Source of the DNA: Solwaraspora sp. WMMA2065
GTDB taxonomy: Bacteria; Actinomycetota; Actinomycetes; Mycobacteriales; Micromonosporaceae
DNA: 64,000 nt
Direction of reading: 5' to 3'
Assembly: GCF_030345075.1 (NCBI RefSeq)
Contig: NZ_CP128361.1
Location: forward strand, 5,022,001-5,086,000
Below the pieces are notes generated by a model. The model saw nothing but the letters and a program-made list of their open reading frames with translations, was not told the DNA's origin and did not search any database. Below, piece after piece: positions 44,311 to 51,627 of the stretch (its first letter is position 1; every line of letters begins with the position of its first letter). A program made the position numbers and the translations under genes.

Positions 44311-45480
44311 GTGACGCACGTGACTGAGCGCGGCAGCGCGGACGTCGGCCCGCCCGCCGACGACTCCGGCGCCCGGACGGTCAACCGCCAGCCGTGGACG
44401 GCCAGCGCCGGCCGGTCCGGCCGCAAACGCACGGTGACGTACGCGGACGCCGGCGTCTCCATCCACGCCGGTGAGCGCGCCGTCGAGCTGCTCAAGTCGA
44501 AGGTGCACAAGACGACCCGGCCCGAGGTGATGGGCGACATCGGCGGCTTCGCCGGGCTCTTCCGGCTCGACGTGCAGAAGTACCGGCACCCGATCCTGGC
44601 CTCGTCGACGGACGGGGTGGGCACCAAGCTGGTCATCGCCCAACAGATGAACATCCACGACACGGTCGGCATCGACCTGGTCGCGATGGTGGTCGACGAC
44701 CTGGTCGCCTGTGGGGCGGAGCCGCTGTTCCTGCTCGACTACATCGCCTGCGGCGAGGTCGTGCCGGACAAGGTCGCCGAGATCGGCGCCGGCATCTCCG
44801 ACGGCTGCCGGTACGCCGGTTGCGCACTGCTCGGCGGCGAGACCGCCGAACACCCCGGGGTGCTGCGGCCGGACGAGTACGACGTCTCCGCGACCGGCGT
44901 CGGCGTGGTCGAGGAGAGCGAGATCCTCGGCCGGGACCGCGTCGAGGTGGGCGACGTGGTGATCGCGATGCGCTCCTCGGGCCTGCACTCCAACGGCTAC
45001 TCGCTGGTCCGCCACGTGCTGCTCGGTGCCGGTCGGATGCGGCTGGACACGGTGGTCGACGACTTCGGCCGGCAGCGGACCCTGGGTGAGGAGCTGCTCA
45101 CCCCGACCAAGATCTACGCCCGGGACTGCCTGAAGCTGATCGAGGAGTGCGAGGTCCGGGCCCTGGCCCACGTGACCGGCGGTGGCATCCCCGGAAACCT
45201 GGTGCGGATCCTCCCTGAGCACGTCGACGCGCTGGTCAACCGCGCCACCTGGAGGCCGCAGCCGATCTTCGATCTGGTGCAGGCGAAGGGGCGGATCGAG
45301 GACAACGAGATGGAGTCGACGTTCAACATGGGCGTCGGCATGTTCGCCATCGTCTCAGCCCAGGACGCCGACCGGGCGCTCGCCTGCCTGACCGGCAGCG
45401 GCATCGAGGCCTGGCAGGCCGGCGACATCATCGAGGGCAGCGGCACCGTACAGATGGTCGGCCACCACACCCGGGGCTGA
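44311..45480 (+). CDS. purM: Phosphoribosylformylglycinamidine cyclo-ligase (AIR synthase)
   Basis: Closes the imidazole ring: FGAM plus ATP to AIR. The 389-residue protein starts at GTG 44311 with GGGGAG four bases upstream, and carries a 40-residue variable N-terminal extension before TYADAGVSIHAGERAVELLK. Core motifs are ASSTDGVGTKLVIA, DDLVACGAEPLFLLDYIA, LLGGETAEHPG and GLHSNGYSLVR. It follows purF and precedes the radical SAM/RiPP pair after 130 bases. Confidence 0.95.
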   Translation: MTHVTERGSADVGPPADDSGARTVNRQPWTASAGRSGRKRTVTYADAGVSIHAGERAVELLKSKVHKTTRPEVMGDIGGFAGLFRLDVQKYRHPILASSTDGVGTKLVIAQQMNIHDTVGIDLVAMVVDDLVACGAEPLFLLDYIACGEVVPDKVAEIGAGISDGCRYAGCALLGGETAEHPGVLRPDEYDVSATGVGVVEESEILGRDRVEVGDVVIAMRSSGLHSNGYSLVRHVLLGAGRMRLDTVVDDFGRQRTLGEELLTPTKIYARDCLKLIEECEVRALAHVTGGGIPGNLVRILPEHVDALVNRATWRPQPIFDLVQAKGRIEDNEMESTFNMGVGMFAIVSAQDADRALACLTGSGIEAWQAGDIIEGSGTVQMVGHHTRG

Positions 45481-45610
45481 CGGCGGGCCGCTGCCGCGTC
45501 ATCCGGGCGGGCCGTCGCCGCCGCGTCCCGGCGGGCCGTACCGCCGATTCACCTCGGCAGACCCCGACACCTAGCCTGAAACGGCATCCGTCACAGGCAG
45601 GAGGATGGGG

Positions 45611-46777
45611 ATGAGCAGGGCCGAAACCCGGCAGGACCCGGCCGGTGGGGAGCGGCCGGCCCCCACCGGCATGCGCGGCGTGGCGACCGTCCCGAGCTAC
45701 GTCGTCATGCAGCCCACCACGCTGTGCAACCTGGACTGCAGCTACTGCTACCTGCCGTTGCGGGCGGCCAACCGGCGGATGCCGGTCGCCGTGGCCGAGG
45801 CTGTCGCCCGGCCGGTGAACGTCTGGGCGGCGCAGCGGGGACGCCGGTTCTCGGTGGTCTGGCACGGTGGTGAGCCGCTGGCCGCCGGGCCGGACCATCT
45901 GGCGGCGCTGATCCGCCCGTTCAGCGCCGACGTGGAGCACCACGTGCAGACCAACGCGACCTTGATCGACGACCCCTGGTGTGAGTTCTTCCGCGAGTAC
46001 CGGGTGAGGGTCAGCGTCAGCGTCGACGGTCCGCGGGCGCGTAACGACAGCCGGCACACCCGGGGTGGTCGGCCCGCTTACGACCAGATCCGGAGCGGTG
46101 TCGAAGCGCTACGCCGGCATGGGATCGAATTCTCGGCGCTCTGCGTGGTCAGCGACCCGAGCCCTGGCCTGGCCACCGAGCTGTACCGCTTCTTCCTCGG
46201 CCTCGGCTGCGACGTGCTGGGCATCAACATCGAGGAGACGGAGGGCGTGAACGTCCGGCCGAACCGCTGGCCGGACCGGGCCGTCGCCGGCTTCTGGGCG
46301 GAACTGGTCGGAGCCTGGCGGCGGGCACCGCGGATCCATCTGCGCGAGGTGGAATGGTCACTGCGGTACGCGGCGGCCGTGCTCGACGGCACGGCCGACG
46401 AGGTGCTGCCCCGCCAGCTCGACCCGATCCCCACCATCGGGTACGACGGGTCGGTGGTGCTGCTCTCGCCGGAGCTGGCCGGCTTTTCCGACCCCCGGTA
46501 CGGGGACTTCACCAGCGGAAACGTGCTGACCAGTGGGCTGGCCGAGATCCTCGCCACGCCGGAACGGACACCCTGGGTCACCGAGTTCGTGGCGGGCGTC
46601 GAGGCATGCCGGACCACCTGTCCGTACTTCCGGTTCTGCGGAGGTGGTCACGCTGCCAACCGTTACTTCGAACACGGGCGTTTTGATGGTACGGAGACCA
46701 ACCACTGCCGTAACAGCAAGATCCATCTACTGGAGGGAGTGTTGGCCCATGCCAGAGACCAGCCGGCAGCGGCCTGA
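45611..46777 (+). CDS. Radical SAM/SPASM peptide maturase, cyclophane-forming (AmcB/XyeB/GrrM-like)
   Basis: A 388-residue radical SAM enzyme expected to build C-C crosslinks in the peptide encoded next door. The [4Fe-4S] motif CNLDCSYCYLP (Cys 38, 42, 45) binds the SAM cluster; WHGGEPLAAG is the SAM-binding turn; the C-terminal SPASM-type region has CRTTCPYFRFCGGG and later NRYFEHGRFDGTETNHC, the ending typical of three-residue-cyclophane enzymes (XyeB, GrrM, and the actinobacterial family I recall as AmcB). ATG 45611 is preferred over 45605 because AGGAGG abuts the latter. A TAGCCT box at 45572-45577 may be its -10. It overlaps the precursor gene by 29 bases. Confidence 0.88.
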   Translation: MSRAETRQDPAGGERPAPTGMRGVATVPSYVVMQPTTLCNLDCSYCYLPLRAANRRMPVAVAEAVARPVNVWAAQRGRRFSVVWHGGEPLAAGPDHLAALIRPFSADVEHHVQTNATLIDDPWCEFFREYRVRVSVSVDGPRARNDSRHTRGGRPAYDQIRSGVEALRRHGIEFSALCVVSDPSPGLATELYRFFLGLGCDVLGINIEETEGVNVRPNRWPDRAVAGFWAELVGAWRRAPRIHLREVEWSLRYAAAVLDGTADEVLPRQLDPIPTIGYDGSVVLLSPELAGFSDPRYGDFTSGNVLTSGLAEILATPERTPWVTEFVAGVEACRTTCPYFRFCGGGHAANRYFEHGRFDGTETNHCRNSKIHLLEGVLAHARDQPAAA

Positions 46778-47003
46778 ACCGGTCGGTGCAGCCCCGGGCG
46801 CCACCGTCGCCGAAGCAGGTGGCGACGATCAGGTGGCGGACCGGGTGTACGCCGTCCGGGACGGTCTGGCACTGCTGCTCGCCGAAGCGGATCAGGCCCG
46901 GCGGCGGCGCGCCGAGGCGGACGGTGCCGACGGCGCGGTCTGCGCCTGGAACCACTTCGAGAACATTCCGACCTTCTACAACTGGAACAACCGCCCCCGT
47001 TGA
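46749..47003 (+). CDS. RiPP precursor peptide with repeated aromatic-x-Asn triplets (AmcA-like)
   Basis: An 84-residue peptide starting inside the maturase gene, with GGAGGGAG upstream of the ATG. Residues 1-64 form an acidic/Ala-rich leader with a helical stretch (VADRVYAVRDGLALLLAEAD). The last 20 residues are unlike the leader: C65-A66, then triplets W67-N68-H69, F70-E71-N72, I73-P74-T75, F76-Y77-N78, W79-N80-N81, then R82-P83-R84. Four of the five triplets begin with an aromatic residue and three end in Asn, the pattern that cyclophane-forming radical SAM enzymes crosslink (aromatic ring to the beta carbon of the third residue). No protease or exporter is adjacent. I recall the NCBI family name AmcA for similar peptides. 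Confidence 0.82.
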   Translation: MPETSRQRPEPVGAAPGATVAEAGGDDQVADRVYAVRDGLALLLAEADQARRRRAEADGADGAVCAWNHFENIPTFYNWNNRPR

Positions 47004-47090
47004 CCGCTTCAACCGGTTTCGTCGACCGCCCTGACCGGCCCCCGTACGCGGACATGGCGGACGCACCAGCCGCCCCGCGTGCCGATGGAC

Positions 47091-47133
47091 ATCCGGTGGT
47101 GCCTACCCCGTCTTGGGGTACGCACCACCGGAT
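47091..47133 (+). terminator. 19-bp stem-loop after the RiPP locus
   Basis: Positions 47091-47109 pair with 47115-47133 with a single mismatch around a 5-base loop, an exceptionally long stem, 88 bases after the precursor stop. It should end the purM/RiPP transcription unit. Confidence 0.85.
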
Positions 47134-47193
47134 GGTGGCATTCCGACACACGTACGGCGACCAGCCGGGCCGGAGTCCTCGTCGACACGAATC

Positions 47194-47218
47194 AGCACGC
47201 GGACACTGACCGCGTGCT
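47194..47218 (-). terminator. Stem-loop after the DUF3073 gene
   Basis: AGCACGCGG (47194-47202) pairs exactly with CCGCGTGCT (47210-47218) around a 7-base loop, 17 bases beyond the minus-strand stop at 47235. Confidence 0.65.
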
Positions 47219-47234
47219 CTGATCAGTCGGACCC

Positions 47235-47456
47235 TCAGCGGGACGAAGAGGGTGTCCAGTTACCCCGGTCGTCGTCGGCTGGGTCGTCCTCGTCATCGTC
47301 GTCGAGGTACGGATCGTACTCGTCGTCGAAATCACGGTCCGACTTGCCGCTGCCGGCGAGCTCTCGCTGCAAGGCGGCGAGGTCGGTGTTCGGGGAGTGG
47401 TATTTCAGCTCCCTGGCCACCTTTGTCTGCTTGGCCTTAGCACGGCCGCGCCCCAT
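47235..47456 (-). CDS. DUF3073 protein
   Basis: A 73-residue protein with the typical DUF3073 start MGRGRAKAKQTKVARELKYH, then SPNTDLAALQRELAG and a very acidic Asp-rich tail. GAGGGGG lies eight bases before the ATG at 47456; the frame extends upstream without homology. Conserved in actinobacteria near purM and vdh; function unknown, with the basic head suggesting nucleic-acid contact. Confidence 0.9.
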   Translation of the reverse strand: MGRGRAKAKQTKVARELKYHSPNTDLAALQRELAGSGKSDRDFDDEYDPYLDDDDEDDPADDDRGNWTPSSSR

Positions 47457-47771
47457 GGCTCGACCCCCTCGCACAGAATTCGGGGCAGCCCGAAGGCGGG
47501 CCCCGATGACGTCAGGCATCTCTCGTGGCTCTTACGGTACATGGGCGAACCCAGGTTCGGCACCTCGGGTTGCATCGGGTCGCTCCCGCGCGTCATCGGC
47601 GGCCGACGTCGTCACGGGCAGCAGCGGGGTCCGTCACGGGCAGCTGGGAGGTAAGGAGCCCGATCCCCGCCGCTCGTGACCCGTACGGGTGATTCTCCAC
47701 ACGCGCGGTGACGGCCACCCGACCGGACCGGCGGGTCTGCTCCCAGGACGGCGCTGCTCAGGGGTGGCGGC
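47457..47771. other. Intergenic region between vdh and DUF3073
   Basis: About 315 bases without a gene. TACCGT on the minus strand (near 47536) could be the -10 of the DUF3073 gene. The sequence TCACGGGCAGC is repeated directly at about 47616 and 47635, spacing near two helical turns. Otherwise I see nothing to annotate. Confidence 0.5.
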
Positions 47772-48890
47772 TCACCGGAGATGGATCGCGCGCAGCCGAC
47801 CAACCTCGGCCATCCGGCGTTCAGCGAGCCGGTCGGCCGCCACCGCCGGCGGCACGCCCTCCCGGTCGGCGCTGCGCAGGATCTCCCGAGTGGTCTGGTA
47901 GATGCGCGTCGCCCGCGCCTTGGCCCGGTCGAAGTCGAACCCGTACCGGCCGTTGGCCGACGGTGTCGTGGCCCCGGTCACCTCGTCGGCCACCTGGATC
48001 ACCCCGCCGGCGTTGACGACGTAGTCCGGGGCGTAGAGGATGCCTCGCTCGGCGAGCAGCTTCTCGACGCCGGGGTGGGCCAACTGGTTGTTGGCAGCCC
48101 CGGCGACGATTGCGGCCCGCAGCGCCGGCACAGTGTCGTCGTCGAGCGCCCCGCCGAGCGCGCAGGGCGCGTAGACGTCGATCTCCTGGCGGATCAGCAC
48201 GTCGGTGTCGTCCACCAGGTCCACCTGCGGGTGGGTGCGCCGGGCCCAGTCCAGGGCCTGTTCGCTGACGTCGGTGGCCATCACCGCGGCACCGTCGTCG
48301 AGTAGATGCCCGGTCAACTGCCGGCCCACCTTGCCGAGCCCGGCGATGCCGACCCGCCGGCCGGCGAGACTGGCCGAACCCCACCGGTGCTCGGCGGCGG
48401 CGCGCATGCCCTGGAACACCCCCCAGGCGGTGAGCTCGGAGGAGTCACCGGCCCCGCCCTGCGCACGGCTGCGCCCGGTGGCGAACCGGGTCTCCCGGGC
48501 CACGACGTCCATGTCCGGCACGAAGGTGCCGACGTCGCAGGCGGTGTAGTAGCGCCCGCCGAGCGATTCGACGAACCGGCCGTACGCGCGCAGCAGTGCC
48601 TCGGTCTTGAGCTGCTCCGGATCGCCCCAGATGACCGCTTTGCCACCACCCAGGTCGAGTCCGGCCATCGCGTTCTTGTAGGCCATCCCCCGGGACAGGT
48701 CCAGCACGTCGTGCAGGGCGTCGGCTTCGGAGGCGTACGGGTAGAAACGGGTGCCGCCGAGCGCCGGCCCGAGCGCGGTCGAGTAGATGGCGATGATCGC
48801 TCGCAGCCCGGTCGGCTGGTCCTGGCAGAAGACGACCTGTTCGTGCCCGGTGGCGGTGCCGGGGCCGGCAGTGGTGGTGAAGACGCCCAT
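47772..48890 (-). CDS. vdh: Valine/branched-chain amino acid dehydrogenase
   Basis: NAD-dependent oxidative deamination of valine, leucine and isoleucine. The 372 residues match the Glu/Leu/Phe/Val dehydrogenase family: substrate-site [12 protein letters not shown], catalytic Lys in [19 protein letters not shown] (about residues 70-88), a Rossmann motif [12 protein letters not shown], and [11 protein letters not shown] with [13 protein letters not shown] is six bases before the ATG. The position next to bldC and DUF3073 matches what I remember of the Streptomyces vdh locus, hence the name. Confidence 0.92.
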
Positions 48891-50569: not shown

Positions 50570-50818
50570 TCAGCTCGCCGGCGGGTGTCCGCCGTCGCCG
50601 TCGACCACCTCGTCCGGGGTGCCGTCCTCGTCCAGATCGACCATGGTGATGTCGACCTTGCCGTCCCCGTCGGTGTCGAACTGGTACATGTCGGCCTTGC
50701 CGTCGCCGTCGGTGTCGACCACCCAGACGTCGGTCTGTCCGTCGTTGTTGGTGTCGGCCTTGAGTAGATCGACGCGATCATCACCGCGCGTCTCCACCGA
50801 CTCCTGTGCCTCGGTCAT
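50570..50818 (-). CDS. Small protein of four 13-residue calcium-loop repeats
   Basis: An 82-residue protein without signal peptide or membrane helix. Residues 19-70 are four tandem 13-residue units of form xxxD-x-D/N-x-D-G-xx-D-x (for example WVVDTDGDGKADM and YQFDTDGDGKVDI). The Asp spacing equals that of EF-hand and thrombospondin type-3 calcium loops. GGAGGG stands before the ATG at 50818. It is the shorter relative of the next gene upstream on the same strand. Probably binds calcium in the cytoplasm, or is exported by a non-Sec route; function unknown. Confidence 0.75.
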   Translation of the reverse strand: MTEAQESVETRGDDRVDLLKADTNNDGQTDVWVVDTDGDGKADMYQFDTDGDGKVDITMVDLDEDGTPDEVVDGDGGHPPAS

Positions 50819-50908
50819 CCCAGGTCCCTCCATCACTCAGTCACAACAGCTGCGGATGTCGACAGTAGGGTGCCATCCGGCCGGTCGCGACCCGGTCGCG
50901 ACCCGGCC

Positions 50909-51478
50909 TCACCTCGCCGCGTAGGGGTTGACCGTCGGGTGCAGGTAGGTCACCGTCTCCGGCACGCCGTCCTGGTCGGCGTCGCGCAGCGTCTGGTCCG
51001 CCCGGCCGTCGAAGTCAGTGTCCTGGACCCAGGTGTCCGTCCGGCCGTCGTGATCGGTGTCGGCCGCCACCTGGTCGATCAGACCGTCCCCGTCGGTGTC
51101 GGTGGCGACGGCGTCGATCCAGCCGTCGCCGTTGGTGTCCGTGCCGACCTCGTCGACCCGCCCGTCGCCGTCGAAGTCGCGCAGCATGCTCTCCAGCCGA
51201 CCGTCCCCGTCTCCGTCGACGTACGCGAGCTCCGCCAGCCCGTCGCCGTCGCTGTCGTGCAGGACCACGTCGGCGAGGCCGTCCCCGTCCCGGTCGACCA
51301 GCACGTCGGTGGAGCCGTCAAGATTGTGCTGGACTATCGTGTACGACCCGCTGCTGTAAGGACCGTCGCCGTACGGCTCGTAGCCGGCATCGTCGTGGCC
51401 CGGGTCGCCGCTCGGGCCCAGTCCCTGTTCCGCTTCGACCGCCCCGTCACCGAGGGCCGGATCGACCCACTCACTCAT
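50909..51478 (-). CDS. Protein of nine tandem 13-residue calcium-loop repeats
   Basis: A 189-residue protein. Residues 1-58 are acidic, Gly/Tyr-rich and signal-free; residues 59-175 are nine uninterrupted repeats of exactly 13 residues, such as VLHDSDGDGLAEL, MLRDFDGDGRVDE and VATDTDGDGLIDQ, each with Asp at positions 4, 6 and 8 and Gly at 9. Short hydrophobic pairs alternate with the loops, as in a beta-solenoid or stacked calcium-binding turns. AGAGGCGG precedes the ATG at 51478. It is 90 bases upstream of the four-repeat relative, likely one operon. I know no named family. Confidence 0.78.
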   Translation of the reverse strand: MSEWVDPALGDGAVEAEQGLGPSGDPGHDDAGYEPYGDGPYSSGSYTIVQHNLDGSTDVLVDRDGDGLADVVLHDSDGDGLAELAYVDGDGDGRLESMLRDFDGDGRVDEVGTDTNGDGWIDAVATDTDGDGLIDQVAADTDHDGRTDTWVQDTDFDGRADQTLRDADQDGVPETVTYLHPTVNPYAAR

Positions 51479-51627
51479 CCTGCCGCCTCTTCCGCAGATC
51501 GTCCTGGCTGCTGACAAAGGAACCGTACGCAGCGGCAACCTGCCTGTGATCCCGAGAAAGTGCCAGCTGGGCGGACCGGCCGGCGGGGGCCTGGCGACCG
51601 CCGGCCTGATCTGCTACCGGGCGGGTC

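Follow-up and report, generated by a model that had tools for sequence, protein, structure and literature searches.

We put at about 0.8 the probability that amcB and amcA of Solwaraspora sp. WMMA2065 form a two-gene RiPP operon with three probable cyclophanes in its product, vertically inherited in the family of the host, Micromonosporaceae, and most likely serving a conserved physiological role. That the precursor core is near-identical in most sampled members of this family is a hint that the product has a conserved role in its producer and is not a variable antibiotic.

The amcBA locus and its products

Within the window, i.e. the whole 64,000 nt stretch of DNA analysed, amcB (45611-46777, + strand) encodes a putative radical SAM/SPASM cyclophane-forming peptide maturase of 388 aa, and amcA (46749-47003, + strand) its 84-aa precursor, with purM on one side and a convergent DUF3073 gene on the other. 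The original prediction of both genes, as a minimal locus of the AmcA/AmcB type, is confirmed from the sequence, and both proteins exceed curated NCBIfam cut-offs. AmcB scores 506.1 bits with the equivalog NF041718 (“cyclophane-forming radical SAM peptide maturase AmcB”, cut-off 425), and 63.7 bits with Pfam Radical_SAM; AmcA scores 106.4 bits with the equivalog NF041722 (“multiple cyclophane-containing RiPP AmcA”, type 3a, cut-off 65) and remains below the cut-off for type 3b (NF041723, 37.7 versus 65 bits). The nearest other maturase model, GrrM/OscB (TIGR04261), gives 245.5 bits, under its cut-off of 310. The amcBA locus belongs to the AmcA/AmcB family (NF041718, NF041721, NF041722, NF041723), with which it shares scores above the NF041718 and NF041722 cut-offs, the two-gene order and the aromatic-x-Asn triplets, and from which it does not differ at family level. 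This kind of locus is known and named, and the family name given in the original prediction was right, being already catalogued in NCBIfam. A 2022 paper by Phan and Morinaka covers this group, judging by its title, and is said to be connected with the name Amc.

By sequence reading, amcB begins at ATG 45611, six bases downstream of a GGAGG motif (45600-45604). An alternative ATG at 45605 abuts this motif and is the poorer start; the AmcB query used in searches was the version beginning there. The amcA frame runs from ATG 46749 to TGA 47001-47003, behind a probable ribosome-binding site GGAGGGAG (46732-46739, + strand), also recognised by reading of the sequence. The position of this site and of the amcA start inside amcB, with an overlap of 29 nt, suggests translational coupling. 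No second AmcB above cut-off is encoded in this genome.

By analogy with characterised relatives, from which the chemistry of AmcB is inferred, the enzyme would recognise AmcA, possibly through its leader, and bond the ring of the residue that opens an aromatic-x-Asn triplet (position i) to the beta-carbon of the one two places further on (i+2), yielding three-residue cyclophanes; the leader may be removed by an unlinked protease. Three Cys in the CNLDCSYC motif and four C-terminal Cys, the latter presumably belonging to the SPASM region, are each kept in 73/73 relatives, all of the 3a type. This alignment, of the 73 AmcB genes extracted out of 74 and exclusively from loci with a 3a core, has 156 invariant positions among 355 ungapped columns, the longest invariant run being 7. 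Solved structures matched by sequence, i.e. those of the anaerobic sulfatase-maturating enzyme (4k36-4k39) and of the ChlB radical SAM domain (9gm3), are remote from AmcB, with an E value of 1e-14 for the sole match spanning most of the protein. Every matching plasmid record had less than 60% identity to AmcB (163/163), and viral contigs yielded only 10 remote relatives (21-35% identity).

Conservation of the AmcA core

The C-terminal core C-A-WNH-FEN-IPT-FYN-WNN-RPR (residues 65-84; 46941-47000, + strand) contains the triplet series that had been read as WNH-FEN-IPT-FYN-WNN after C65-A66, which is found as such in the 84-aa AmcA; the RPR following the last triplet was absent from that description. 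A stretch of five consecutive triplets of which four fit [WFY]-x-[NH] in register appeared in 0/200,000 whole-peptide shuffles, and four or more in-register triplets in 82/200,000 shuffles of the 18-residue AmcA tail alone, figures that are indicative since the pattern was picked after viewing the sequence. Conservation is stronger evidence than these shuffles against a chance origin of the core. The lone Cys directly before the triplets (C65, 46941-46943) is invariant in the 3a type and absent from this place in the other core types aligned.

Of 200 genomes drawn evenly from the host family, 143, representing 24 of 44 genera, encode the 17-residue core CAWNHFENIPTF[Y/F]NWNN, and the same number of genomes (143/200) has an AmcA above the 3a cut-off; the core pattern read backwards gave 0 matches in every row listed. 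Among the best 80 of 419 relatives, a set tilted to close relatives in comparison with the even sample of 200 genomes, the window core is the same except for Tyr/Phe in 74 loci, all 21 residues of VCAWNHFENIPTF[Y/F]NWNNRPR being present (68 with Tyr, 6 with Phe). The six loci of these 80 without the core are L090, L091, L096 and L098 (another core type), L100 (a fusion) and L094, whose contig stops at the amcB match. The expectation that the triplets would be conserved among homologues was borne out to this extent, the core being near-identical in 143/200 genomes, and failed for WNH, which is replaced in precursors with other cores (see below). Neither how extremely invariant the core is, nor its constant location behind purM, nor its vertical inheritance had been noticed.

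The leader is far more variable. Pairwise identity among the 74 sequences (from the best 80 of 419) averages 0.993 in the core versus 0.365 in the preceding 36 leader residues, the latter value being understated by the ungapped comparison. Within the 3a type, the parts of the core outside the predicted rings (IPT, RPR and CA) are just as fixed, suggesting that the core is important as a whole and not at its crosslink sites only. At the DNA level, the core is represented by 56 haplotypes among the 74 sequences, with a diversity at four-fold sites of 0.37 as against 0.45 in invariant AmcB codons. Since silent sites of the core vary, the constraint appears to act mainly on the peptide and not on the DNA. 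It is very improbable that the core has been kept for another function of its DNA or RNA, or that it is uniform through recent spread of the locus. The somewhat lower four-fold diversity of the core, and the use of AAC for N72, N78 and N80 in 107/107 sequences examined, would fit a function in DNA or RNA, but the number of haplotypes argues against it, as does the lack of any Rfam match at the gathering threshold in 44500-48500. Recent spread is at odds with the diverged leaders and with AmcB distances that track those of neighbouring genes (see below), so that both explanations are already largely disfavoured.

AmcB above cut-off is encoded in 158/200 genomes of the host family and in 7/7 genomes of the host genus. 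Its distribution outside the family is patchy: it was found in 8/394 genomes of the host class, 3 of these 8 being from the host family, and in 14/200 genomes of one other family. Within Micromonosporaceae, the core is missing from 57/200 genomes and 20/44 genera, and AmcB above cut-off from 42/200 genomes; the product is therefore not essential throughout the family. The core motif was not recognised in loci L111, L175, L176, L178-L181 and L183.

Predicted number of cyclophanes

The best prediction from sequence is of three cyclophanes (-6.05 Da), probably at FEN (46956-46964, Phe-Asn), FYN (46974-46982, Phe-Asn) and WNN (46983-46991, Trp-Asn), all on the + strand, with WNH (46947-46955, + strand) as a doubtful fourth site. 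This prediction derives from precursors with other cores, which keep three triplets but not WNH. The window sequence AWNH-FEN-IPT-FYN-WNN-RPR aligns with RWRP-FED-AFPT-FYQ-FTN-RPR of type 3b, with further AmcB-linked cores (WRA-FED-SFPT-FYE-FTN, WRA-FSD-AFPT-FWE-FSN and WTD-VFTTQ-FTE-FSN) and with the core CES-TGT-YYN-WNN-RSR of a fused form. WNH has no equivalent in the other-core precursors, which come from other genera of the host family and have WRP, WRA or PRP instead. FEN is represented in relatives by FEN, FED or FSD, by WTD in one type and by CES in the fused form, FYN by FYN, FFN, FYQ, FYE, FWE, FTE or YYN, and WNN by WNN, FTN or FSN. The second and third triplets thus end in Asn, Asp, Ser, Gln or Glu across the aligned cores, and the last one ends in Asn in all 8 of these hand-chosen sequences. 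Non-conservation of the triplets, which had been named as grounds for abandoning the original prediction, was observed for WNH and for the strict Asn of FEN and FYN; the final triplet keeps its Asn in all 8 aligned cores. Crosslink motifs, as expected of a triceptide, are kept in homologous precursors for three of the four triplets, with some Asn substituted; the fused form of L100, which keeps only two aromatic-x-Asn triplets, counts against this. According to section 16 of PMC11002830, OscB-type enzymes link Trp to the beta-carbon of Asn or Asp, and Phe to that of Asn. Several of the core substitutions fit the partners given in that section, Gln and Glu not being among those it lists.

The original prediction of up to four crosslinks in perfect register is not well supported. 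The spacer IPT is replaced by AFPT, SFPT or VFTTQ, with a change in length, so that the perfect triplet register appears to be incidental. That all four triplets are crosslinked (-8.06 Da) seems doubtful to us: WNH is as invariant as the other triplets within the 3a type, both in the 74 loci among the best 80 of 419 and in the 143/200 genomes, but it is absent from other-core precursors that retain the other three, nothing corresponds to it in the type-1 paralogue FDNRPTWDN...WDNWNK, and section 16 of PMC11002830 lists no bond to a His beta-carbon. Three rings at FEN, FYN and WNN are therefore retained as the prediction. An attempt to read the “3” of AmcA_3a as a ring count was dropped, as the AmcA_1 model matches four-triplet cores (peptides of L104 and L137).

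Genomic position and vertical inheritance

Six neighbours of amcBA were examined, i.e. purF, purM, the DUF3073 gene, a Glu/Leu/Phe/Val dehydrogenase gene, an ORF without Pfam match and a BldC-like regulator gene, of which purF, purM and the BldC-like gene are presumptive names that we base on sequence and synteny. Among the best 80 of 419 loci, 74 have purM just upstream of amcB in the same orientation, at a distance below 1.5 kb (gap of 60-585 bases), and 77 have a convergent DUF3073 gene less than 2 kb downstream. Of the six loci in which purM is not so placed, five have purF and purM farther upstream on the other strand and one has no purM; the three exceptions for DUF3073 are due to a contig end in one case and, in two, to inversion of the segment that runs from DUF3073 to bldC. 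In further 3a loci, purM is found beside amcB in 18/18 cases. By comparison, it is absent from the flanks of about 1.5 kb of 12/12 type-1-like loci and of 15/15 AmcB loci outside the host family.

The correlation of AmcB pairwise distances with those of a neighbour is 0.86 for PurM, 0.83 for the 49063 ORF, 0.77 for the dehydrogenase, 0.72 for PurF and 0.58 for DUF3073, compared to 0.45-0.87 among the neighbours themselves, as vertical inheritance predicts. The weaker tracking of DUF3073, PurF and the dehydrogenase than of PurM counts against it. The amcBA genes are vertically inherited at one fixed site. A DUF3073 protein probe was applied to 16 host-family genomes without the core. An AmcB match lies beside DUF3073 in four of them (L192; L197 with L208; L202; L204). 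In L199 and L207, purM and DUF3073 are about 1 kb and 0.4 kb apart, respectively, with no amcBA match between them, and the remaining ten loci have no purM match. Two adjoining ORFs rich in D-x-D-G-D repeats, which we take to resemble calcium-binding repeats, are located on the - strand beside the BldC-like gene (50570-51538).

Probable promoter and intergenic hairpin

Comparison of upstream regions points to a probable amcBA promoter at 45548-45577 (+ strand), consisting of TTCACC, an 18-base spacer and TAGCCT. The pattern TT[CG][AG]CC-N17-19-TA[GA]CCT, written after inspection of the upstream sequences, occurs upstream in 28/81 loci, window included, versus 0.11 expected from mononucleotide shuffles, the full pair being missing in 53/81 loci; CCTA[GA][CG][CG]T alone is found upstream in 56/81. 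A strict sigma-70 promoter scan gave nothing at amcBA. The promoter-like pair before amcB suggests that amcBA expression probably involves more than readthrough from purM, and the operon is probably under its own promoter.

Between the convergent amcA and DUF3073 genes lies a long hairpin (47090-47134) with two exact 13-base arms, which may be a bidirectional terminator. Folding of 47004-47160 gave a stem of 13 + 6 bp with a z-score of -3.37; the hairpin has no T run and was not reported by a terminator scan. A genome-wide repeat was considered and rejected, as a DNA search found no other copy in the genome.

Possible role of the 3a product

An invariant and vertically inherited core fits a role in the physiology of the producer better than one as a weapon. 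The product would most likely serve a conserved function in its producer, as a signal or in a cofactor-like manner; PQQ and mycofactocin are analogues for the latter. A more specific proposal, that the 3a product is a core-genome triceptide, practically invariant, made by most of the family and passed on vertically at its site behind purM, with the function of a conserved signal or a cofactor-like molecule and not of a variable antibiotic, is advanced tentatively, at slightly less than even odds.

A core can also be invariant because the enzyme is strict or because the target does not vary. Peptides used in competition tend to diversify and to change their genomic location. It seems unlikely that the product is an ordinary antibacterial or competition peptide with an invariant target, given the invariance of the core over 24 genera, its single chromosomal position, its vertical inheritance and the lack of immunity or export genes among the neighbours examined; the observation that no protease or exporter adjoins the locus holds for all six conserved neighbours. 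There are precedents for such an activity, as darobactin, which a related radical SAM enzyme produces, acts against Gram-negative bacteria (PMC9055067), and the radical SAM enzyme DynE makes a narrow-spectrum antibiotic (PMC11002830, section 16). PMC12257519, from 2025, describes the bioactivities of triceptides as not yet elucidated. The amcBA locus would bear on whether some triceptides are not weapons, and its single core, in 143/200 genomes and 24/44 genera at a fixed locus, makes it a tractable case that would speak for all of these. The literature searched, the group's own paper aside, did not mention the invariance of the core, the purM position, the fusions of L100 and L110 or the core type of L197 (see below), and no paper pairing AmcA with cyclophane was found in it.

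Paralogues, fusions and other core types

Members of the host family also encode type-1 AmcA paralogues with cores of the form FDNRPTWDN-KGK-FDSRPGWDNWNK, which resemble the FEN-IPT-FYN element. Separate AmcB copies with FDN/WDN cores are found in L137-L146, L154 and L156, and 11 of these 12 type-1-like genomes also encode the 3a core, the exception being L154. The sole type-1 peptide scanned, that of L137, was assigned to AmcA_1 by NCBIfam. A comparison of 10 of the 12 loci (L137-L144, L146 and L156; L145 and L154 were left out as their tails differ) showed that their AmcB, like that of the window, is above cut-off, and that FDN-RPT-WDN resembles FEN-IPT-FYN. They differ from the window in an AmcB of only about 40% identity, in their leader, in a mostly Lys-rich end, and in a core that varies (9 different sequences in the 10 loci, mean identity 0.89).

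In L197 and L204, precursors downstream of amcB end in WTDVFTTQFTEFSNRPR; the L197 peptide matched no NCBIfam model at E 0.01. Two natural fusions were detected. In L100 (5555-6793, a Dactylosporangium MAG), AmcB continues in frame into an AmcA-like core CESTGTYYNWNNRSR, the AmcB part scoring 452 bits, above cut-off. L192 was dropped as a second case of this kind, as it has the same tail as L100 and probably represents the same record. The open frame 1444-2754 of L110 fuses AmcB (419 bits, just below cut-off) to an AmcA-like core with FDNRPTWDN...FDNRPAWDNW. Such AmcB-AmcA fusions, together with the off-register cores, provide ready material for mapping the substrate rules of the enzyme.
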